A DNA stretch of 64,000 nucleotides, taken from assembly GCA_016871395.1 (NCBI GenBank), contig VFYV01000005.1:1-64000 (forward strand), read 5' to 3'. This DNA comes from Actinomycetota bacterium (lineage in GTDB: Bacteria; Actinomycetota; Acidimicrobiia; Acidimicrobiales; Ilumatobacteraceae). The position numbers and the translations under genes were made by a program. This document shows positions 4,242 through 51,590 of the stretch, one piece after another (the stretch's first letter is position 1; each line of letters begins with the position of its first letter). The notes beneath the pieces were generated by a model. It did not search any database and had not been told where the DNA came from. It worked only from the letters and a program-made list of their open reading frames with translations.

Positions 4242-4844
4242 ATGAGCACCATCACCCCCCGCAAACTCACCCTCGACGACATTGCTGACGTGCGCGCTTA
4301 CGAACGCGAACGTGAGGCCTTCAAGGCCAAGGTCATCGCCATGAAGCAACGCCGTCGCCTTGCACTCGGACCGTTCGTATCGGTCGTCTTCGAGAACCGT
4401 GACACGATCCGTCACCAAATCCAGGAGATGGCTCGTGTCGAGAGACTGGCTACCGACCAGGAGATCCAGACCGAACTCGACATCTACAACCCGATGATTC
4501 CCGAGGCCGGTCAGTTGTGCGCGACACTGTTCATCGAACTCACCTCCGACGAGCAGATGCGCGAGTGGCTACCCAAGTTGGTCGGTATCGAGTCGTCGTT
4601 GGTTTTTCGCCTTGCCGGGGGTCGCACGGTTCGTGCCATCACCGAACTCCAACACGCCAGCCAACTCACCCGTGAGACGATCACCGCCGCCGTTCACTAC
4701 GTTCAGTTCGATTTCACTCCGGAGGACGTCAATGCCTTGGATTCGGGCGAGGCGATGTTCGCCTGTGACCACCCGGCGTACCTCGAAGAAATCGTTTTGA
4801 CCGCCGGAAATCGCGAGGAATTCTTGACGGACTTGCTGCCCTGA
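4242..4844 (+). CDS. DUF3501 family protein
   Basis: A 200-residue protein of the uncharacterised DUF3501 family, recognised by the N-terminal ITPRKLTLDDI and the EIQTELDIYNPMIP block. No signal peptide or membrane segment and almost no cysteine, so it is a soluble cytoplasmic protein. It follows the CCG Fe-S gene by 19 nt and closes the module that begins with the PerR-like regulator and rubrerythrin. The family normally sits next to these same partners, so a role in peroxide or iron-related stress is inferred; no biochemical function can be read from the sequence. Confidence 0.85.
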   Translation: MSTITPRKLTLDDIADVRAYEREREAFKAKVIAMKQRRRLALGPFVSVVFENRDTIRHQIQEMARVERLATDQEIQTELDIYNPMIPEAGQLCATLFIELTSDEQMREWLPKLVGIESSLVFRLAGGRTVRAITELQHASQLTRETITAAVHYVQFDFTPEDVNALDSGEAMFACDHPAYLEEIVLTAGNREEFLTDLLP

Positions 4845-18265: not shown

Positions 18266-18805
18266 ATGGATCGTCGAAGTTTGCGCCTACTGGTGGCGAT
18301 CATGGCGATCGTCGCGGCCTGTGGGAGTGACACGGCCGACACCTCCGGTCCGGCCGGCACTGCGGGCGCGCCGGGCACCACGGGCTTGGTGGCTGGTCCT
18401 GACACCGCAGTGCCGACGGGTGACTCGCTCCTGATCGACCCGACCACCGACGTCGTGTCGTCGGGGCGACCGGTGGTTCTGTGGTTCTGGGCCCCCGGTT
18501 GAACGCAGTGCAACATGGAAGCCCCCTCGGTCGAGGAGGCCCACCTCACCTACGGCGAGTCGGTGGACTTTTACGGCGTCGCGTGGAATGGTTCGACGGA
18601 GTACATGCTCGAATTCATCGATCGGCACGGGATCACTTTCCCGAGTCTCCTCGATGTTGCCGGTGACGTGTTCGCTCGCTACGAGGTTCCGTACCAACCG
18701 GCCTGGGTGTTCATCGACGCCGGTGGAGCGGTGACCAAGGTGCAAGGCAGCCTGGACCGAGATTCTCTCGAGCCGCTGATCGCGGATTTGATCGCCAACT
18801 CCTGA
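18266..18805 (+). CDS. Putative selenoprotein: DsbE/DsbF-like thioredoxin-fold lipoprotein with UxxC
   Basis: Reading TGA at 18500-18502 as selenocysteine gives a 179-residue protein. Residues 1-18 are a lipoprotein signal with lipobox VAAC, so C19 would be acylated and the protein anchored outside the membrane. After a Gly/Thr/Ala linker comes a TlpA-type domain whose active site reads VLWFWAPG-U-TQC: Sec replaces the nucleophilic Cys of the CxxC, with C82 as partner. The relatives known to me are mycobacterial DsbF and MPT53, which have VVLWFWAPWC or a close variant. The frame stays open for 100 codons after the TGA, with the cis-Pro loop VPYQPAWVF (P145). A GGUC-loop hairpin lies at 18521-18540. 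A nonsense mutation or base-call error is the alternative. The stop abuts the convergent LLM gene. Confidence 0.75.
18500..18502 (+). other. In-frame TGA read as selenocysteine (U79)
   Basis: Codon 79 of the thioredoxin-like gene. It falls exactly on the first Cys position of the family's CxxC active site; the second Cys (C82, TGC) is intact. Confidence 0.72.
18521..18540 (+). promoter_or_regulatory. Candidate bacterial SECIS element
   Basis: An 8-position stem (7 Watson-Crick pairs, one C-A mismatch at 18524/18537) closes a GGTC loop at 18529-18532. The first loop G is 26 nt after the TGA, within the range accepted for bacterial SECIS elements, and GGUC is also the apical loop of the E. coli fdhF element bound by SelB. 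The hairpin lies inside codons 86-92. Confidence 0.65.
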
Positions 18806-25474: not shown

Positions 25475-25549
<75 letters not shown>

Positions 25550-51278: not shown

Positions 51279-51590
51279 ATGTACGCAGTGATCGCAACCG
51301 GTGGCAAGCAGGTTCGGGTGACCGAGGGCCAGCAAGTGCACGTCGAACTTCTCGGCGCCGAACAGGGTGCCGTGGTGAACTTCACGCCCGTTCTGGTCGT
51401 CGATGGTGACACGGTTCTGGCCACTCCATCCCAACTCGCGGGCTCGAGCGTCTCGGGACGTATCGTCGGGGCGGCCACCGGACCCAAGATCGACGGCTTC
51501 ACCTACAAGCGACGCACCAACCAACGTCGCCGGTACGGTCATCGCCAGCACTACCAGGTGGTCGAGATCACCTCCATCGCGAAAGGCTGA
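51279..51590 (+). CDS. rplU: 50S ribosomal protein bL21
   Basis: Complete 103-residue bL21. N-terminal MYAVIATGGKQVRVTEGQ and the C-terminal RRRYGHRQHYQVVEI are diagnostic. It lies 65 nt after the RNase gene and 3 nt before rpmA. Confidence 0.97.
   Translation: MYAVIATGGKQVRVTEGQQVHVELLGAEQGAVVNFTPVLVVDGDTVLATPSQLAGSSVSGRIVGAATGPKIDGFTYKRRTNQRRRYGHRQHYQVVEITSIAKG

Follow-up and report, generated by a model that had tools for sequence, protein, structure and literature searches.

A predicted selenoprotein of the MPT53/DsbE-DsbF type: an actinobacterial lipoprotein with an in-frame UGA at the first position of its UxxC redox motif

Results

Gene structure and protein domains

The gene lies on the forward strand at positions 18266 to 18805 of the window, by which we mean the whole 64,000-nucleotide stretch of DNA analysed. 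Its reading frame starts at ATG 18266, meets a single TGA at codon 79 (18500 to 18502), and then runs through 100 open codons to a TGA stop at 18803 to 18805, exactly as the initial annotation had described. Read through with selenocysteine (Sec) at codon 79, the product is a protein of 179 residues with a lipobox, a linker, and a thioredoxin-like domain. Based on the reading frame, Pfam matches, homologues, and dN/dS, we assign it as a selenoprotein gene for a lipoprotein thioredoxin-like oxidoreductase of the MPT53/DsbE-DsbF type. Pfam models AhpC-TSA (PF00578, 45.3 bits against a cutoff of 26), Redoxin (PF08534, 34.2 bits against 26.6), and Thioredoxin all matched the read-through protein above their cutoffs; no NCBIfam model passed its cutoff with this protein.

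The N terminus carries a predicted signal peptide and lipobox (VAAC-GS; 18266 to 18322, forward strand), visible in the sequence, in which Cys19 (18320 to 18322) would be the residue to be lipidated. In an alignment of 23 members (A1), this cysteine was kept in all 17 rows that cover the column, the other 6 rows being gapped there. The active-site context is WFWAPG-U-TQC-N-MEAPSVEE, with the TGA as the predicted Sec at the first position of the UxxC motif and the presumed resolving cysteine, Cys82 (18509 to 18511, forward strand), at its last. Cys82 is invariant in A1, as is the QPA loop (Q144-P145-A146; 18695 to 18703, forward strand), and the invariant residues further include W-F-W, P77, U79, N83, E85-A86, and GVAW. 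By likeness to thioredoxin folds we take P145 to be the presumed cis-Pro facing the active site, a cis proline being typical of the fold. Both the lipobox and the presumed cis-Pro loop named in the initial annotation are present.

The flanking genes lie on the opposite strand; the upstream one encodes a PfkB-like kinase and the downstream one a luciferase-like monooxygenase. Comparison of 15 loci showed the gene divergent, in 8 of them, all belonging to other genera, from genes that by eye resemble lpd and sucB, with lipB there too in 7. No operon partner was seen in the 15 compared loci.

Structural and family relatives

The best-matching solved chains were 1lu4 (MPT53/DsbE, E value 4e-21) and 3ios (DsbF, E value 3e-19), with matches spanning residues 64 to 173. 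The window protein resembles MPT53/DsbE and DsbF of Mycobacterium tuberculosis in the WFWxPxCxxCxxEAP pattern, the QPA loop, and the single thioredoxin-like domain. It differs from them in having predicted Sec for the first active-site Cys and Gly rather than Trp before it, and no VKOR was found in the window's genus. Models for the thiol-disulfide oxidoreductases ResA and StoA each matched all 23 members of A1 at E values up to 0.01; these proteins, however, have Cys rather than Sec, and the window protein fell below both cutoffs (49.7 versus 170 and 33.3 versus 210, respectively). NF041054 (WAxxUGC_long) describes a ResA-like domain with, going by its name, a Sec motif, but the window protein scored only 18.8 bits against its cutoff of 300, and its motif is UGC where ours is UxxC.

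Conservation of the TGA and selection on downstream codons

A protein search of 100 genomes, including the window's own, listed 48 matches scoring 79 bits or more, distributed over 47 genomes. Of these 48, 47 carried the TGA, one per genome, and the remaining match was a Cys copy, the first of a tandem pair in genome G055. Loci were retrieved for 30 of the best matches and, with the Cys copy (L033) set aside, 29 copies were read directly, 28 from relatives plus that of the window. In all 29, which come from ten genera of one family, the TGA encoded the first residue of UxxC; for the other listed matches, its placement was checked where another search supplied the locus. Position 79 of the homologue alignment is thus TGA in every copy read, and the initial annotation's view that a TGA falling on the active site is more than chance holds. 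Elsewhere in the phylum, other families and classes have TGA copies as well.

Named bacterial genomes were scanned with search patterns that omitted the Sec/Cys residue itself, which gave 80 loci, the best of 420 confirmed stretches. All 80 loci belong to metagenome-assembled genome (MAG) records. Their titles give an Acidimicrobiia taxon in 34 cases, no more than actinobacteria in 38, Bifidobacterium breve in 7, and bacterium in 1. Searching these loci for the motif gave 79 matches, comprising 78 TGA copies and 1 Cys copy, the latter being the upstream member of the G055 tandem (locus L121). Two loci missed by the motif (L164 and L168) proved to be of the TGA type under a looser motif, so that a TGA copy was present in 80 of 80. 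The copies on the seven B. breve-titled records (L102, L106, L107, L117, L120, L122, and L166) group with Acidimicrobiia-type sequences, and the species names on those records look wrong.

Over the 94 codons past the TGA, dN/dS was 0.05 to 0.29 in 17 chosen pairs within the genus. By this measure, the downstream codons are under purifying selection, in line with the earlier claim that the gene is not decaying.

A SECIS-type hairpin follows the TGA

Just downstream of the UGA lies a putative SECIS-type hairpin (18521 to 18540, forward strand), identified by conservation and covariation, with the sequence GCC-C-CCUC-GGUC-GAGG-A-GGC. Its 12-nt core, CCTCGGTCGAGG (18525 to 18536), starts 25 nt past the first base of the TGA and was identical in all 29 rows of alignment A2 and in 74 of the 78 TGA copies of the named loci. 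The core folds as CCUC-GGUC-GAGG, with GU in the apical loop, and is extended by a GCN/NGC stem in which the third position of codon +7 pairs with that of codon +12. We take the loop to resemble that of E. coli fdhF. Among the 29 directly read copies, third-position identity was 1.0 at codons +8 to +11, synonymous positions included; at 14 other invariant degenerate codons used for comparison, it was 0.31 to 0.62 in 12 and 0.87 and 0.93 in the other two.

Covariation was computed on the 73 distinct rows of a larger alignment (A3, 79 rows). There, 97.3% of cells paired in the hairpin, compared with 27 to 61% in slid controls. The pair between the third positions of codons +7 and +12 occurred as CG, UA, GC, UG, AU, and GU and was unpaired in 8 of 73 rows, and in 3 rows one inner stem pair had UA in place of CG. 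Changes on both sides affected 13 cells, against a shuffled mean of 1.4, and none of 500 shuffles reached as high. The number of pairs with a change on both sides did not go beyond shuffles (43 of 500 in A3 and 237 of 500 in A2); for the remaining four covariation measures in A2, the corresponding counts were 0 to 6 of 500.

Hairpin energy was compared with synonymous resampling: a value of 0.05 or lower was reached by 55 of the 95 distinct TGA copies and by 0 of 11 Cys copies. All 55 belong to the 76 copies that carry the 12-nt core, and none of the 19 core-less TGA copies reached 0.05; the window's own copy, at 0.037, was only moderately unusual. Of the 19 core-less copies, 15 lie outside the window's family and entered through the searches of the phylum and the class. 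The SECIS support thus does not extend to those outside-family copies, whose SECIS may lie elsewhere. No SECIS family was matched in Rfam at this site; the two matches it gave were to unrelated families, both below cutoff. A search of the window's own genome for the 12-nt core behind a TGA returned this gene and one other place (contig C18), and a reversed control pattern returned one match. The same search covered 50 other genomes, where some hits fell in genes outside this family.

Selenocysteine machinery and its co-occurrence with the gene

The window's own genome encodes SelA (429 aa) and SelB (569 aa, with a SelB-wing_3 domain) side by side on contig C4 and SelD, without a TGA, on contig C26. 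The machinery expected by the initial annotation is therefore present as selA, selB, and selD, but selC was not found in the assembly, an 87% complete draft. Of the 3 kb flanking selC in one congener, the assembly showed no more than a weak 89-bp match at another place. Because the assembly is incomplete to this degree, selC is likely missing through an assembly gap. We rejected the own-genome matches to the tRNA-Sec model (RF01852) as selC candidates. One is a tRNA-Gly in the window (25475 to 25549, forward strand) that scored 47.7 against the cutoff of 47 and is a false positive; the four others were below the cutoff, and none is selC, since ARAGORN calls them tRNA-Cys, tRNA-Trp, tRNA-Ser, and tRNA-Gly.

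Across the 100 genomes, tRNA-Sec was found above cutoff in 73, and in 20 of 23 congeners; the anticodon was UCA in all five congener tRNA-Sec genes checked. Sec use is thus common among these relatives, contrary to the initial remark that selenoproteins are sparse in Actinobacteria. Among the matches listed at 79 bits or more, TGA copies came from 47 of the 81 genomes that have tRNA-Sec or SelA and from 0 of the 19 with neither (Fisher p = 9.5e-7 over the 100 genomes, uncorrected for relatedness).

A congener with a 97% complete genome (G008) has SelA, SelB, SelD, and tRNA-Sec, and among the matches listed it has no TGA copy of this family, which suggests that the genus has other selenoproteins. 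Among the SelD matches listed, the copies from the genus lack a TGA, and 19 from other genera and families have one. None of the listed formate dehydrogenase-like matches from the genus carries a TGA; TGA-bearing ones came from the other genera in its family (G042, G044, G051, and G052) and from other families (e.g., G028, G035, G040, and G083). Given these SelD and formate dehydrogenase-like matches without TGA, the gene described here is the clearest case found in the genus of the Sec machinery in use.

When the window was scanned by GC3 for further read-through TGAs, six places came up, none resembling a selenoprotein. Some of these are by eye ordinary neighbouring genes (L21/L27-like at 51588 and WhiB-like at 4842). 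The scan missed the gene under study and is therefore not exhaustive. The window also encodes a glutathione peroxidase (PF00255; 29771 to 30274, reverse strand) with Cys, not Sec, at its likely active site (NVASKCGLTPQ).

Sec and Cys forms

In G055, a Cys and a Sec paralogue stand in tandem (L121/L178; contig C154, 60460 to 61728), and the hairpin is found only in the Sec copy. A tree built from 103 Sec and 11 Cys rows, on few columns and with many open forks, requires at least 4 changes of the Sec/Cys label, compared with 10.7 in shuffles; 2 changes are forced by well-supported branches. The G055 Cys copy forms a long branch among Sec rows of named Ilumatobacteraceae. Its position tentatively suggests a change from Sec to Cys after duplication.

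Discussion

Decoding of the UGA

We propose, with a probability of about 0.95, that the gene encodes an exported, lipobox-anchored, thioredoxin-fold oxidoreductase in which UGA codon 79 would be decoded as Sec by SelB and tRNA-Sec under the direction of the hairpin. The proposal rests on sequence evidence: TGA conservation, the hairpin, signs of purifying selection, and the presence of selA, selB, and selD. From these we infer the actual insertion of Sec, lipidation, and redox direction. Together with the co-occurrence of gene and machinery, the same evidence supports the initial placement of Sec at the first position of the CxxC motif of a DsbE/DsbF-like lipoprotein.

Conservation of the TGA, selection, and co-occurrence effectively rule out the other readings of this codon. 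Decoding as Cys, Trp, or Gly, through an altered code or near-cognate read-through, is very unlikely. One tandem paralogue and distant homologues do have Cys at this site, which would fit such decoding, but TGA terminates other genes of the same genome (e.g., selA and selB) as well as this gene itself, and the hairpin and the link to SelA and tRNA-Sec point to Sec. We give hardly any weight to a pseudogene or sequencing error, in which the TGA would be a nonsense mutation or a miscalled TGC or TGT. A lone TGA in an otherwise open frame of a draft assembly fits either, yet the same TGA stands in all 29 read copies and in each of the 80 named loci, and the codons after it evolve at the low dN/dS reported above. 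A true stop, with a short protein ending before the active site and a separate open reading frame of 96 aa from ATG 18515, where the mechanically called frame begins, is just as improbable: that ATG is not conserved (of 29 copies, only the window's own has Met at codon +5), the conserved domain extends across the TGA, and among the matches listed none with a TGA and 79 bits or more comes from the 19 genomes that lack tRNA-Sec and SelA.

Proposed mechanism and redox direction

In the Sec reading, the hairpin, beginning 21 nt past the first base of the UGA, would direct SelB and tRNA-Sec to decode codon 79, and the protein would be exported and held at the membrane via its lipobox. The selenol at the first position of UxxC could then attack envelope proteins at their disulfides or oxidised thiols, after which Cys82 would resolve the mixed selenenylsulfide, as in DsbE/ResA-type proteins.

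MPT53-like oxidases are usually recycled by VKOR. VKOR, the normal partner of such an oxidase, turned up in 5 of the 41 genomes searched and in none of the 24 from the genus; we therefore lean toward a role as a reductase or isomerase. In four of the five VKOR-bearing relatives, tRNA-Sec and SelA are both missing. An MPT53-like oxidase forming disulfide bonds in exported proteins is the less probable alternative, though one we take seriously. The closest solved relatives of the protein are MPT53/DsbE and DsbF, and PMC10808063 suggests that MPT53 catalyses disulfide oxidation. Against this, the usual recycling partner seems to be missing from the genus; an oxidase here may use a partner other than VKOR. 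In a version that we consider improbable, Sec itself would replace the membrane partner: peroxide or oxygen products would oxidise the selenol directly, and the selenenylsulfide so formed would oxidise exported proteins. If that were true, selenium would drive disulfide formation in the envelope without a recycling enzyme of the DsbB/VKOR type.

Placement among known selenoproteins and significance

Selenoproteins with a UxxC active site and the domains PF00578, PF08534, and cd02966 appear in PMC13188914 (Table 1) and PMC2398784 (Table 2). These Prx-like thiol:disulfide oxidoreductase, redoxin, and thiol-disulfide isomerase-like selenoproteins share the UxxC motif and Pfam domains with the window protein; as presented there, they are broad domain classes, compared here by description rather than by sequence. 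The initial annotation's "undescribed" thus holds in part. We found no name for this actinobacterial lipoprotein branch in the literature searched, and the portions of PMC5029168, PMC1794560, PMC12013277, and PMC9402790 available to us do not name it, but UxxC selenoproteins of Prx-like/TlpA-like type are a class already listed. Since that class is known, the protein would be an added member, a Sec form of the MPT53/DsbE-DsbF family, and judged from the sequences compared here, its gene belongs to a widespread actinobacterial branch of the class.

Although present in dozens of actinobacterial genomes, this protein would be truncated or split by gene finders that treat TGA as a stop. The near-invariant SECIS-type hairpin may be of use for studying SelB recognition in Actinomycetota. 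The pairing of Sec and Cys forms within the MPT53/DsbE family, including tandem copies in one genome, would offer a test of what selenium contributes to an exported thiol oxidoreductase.
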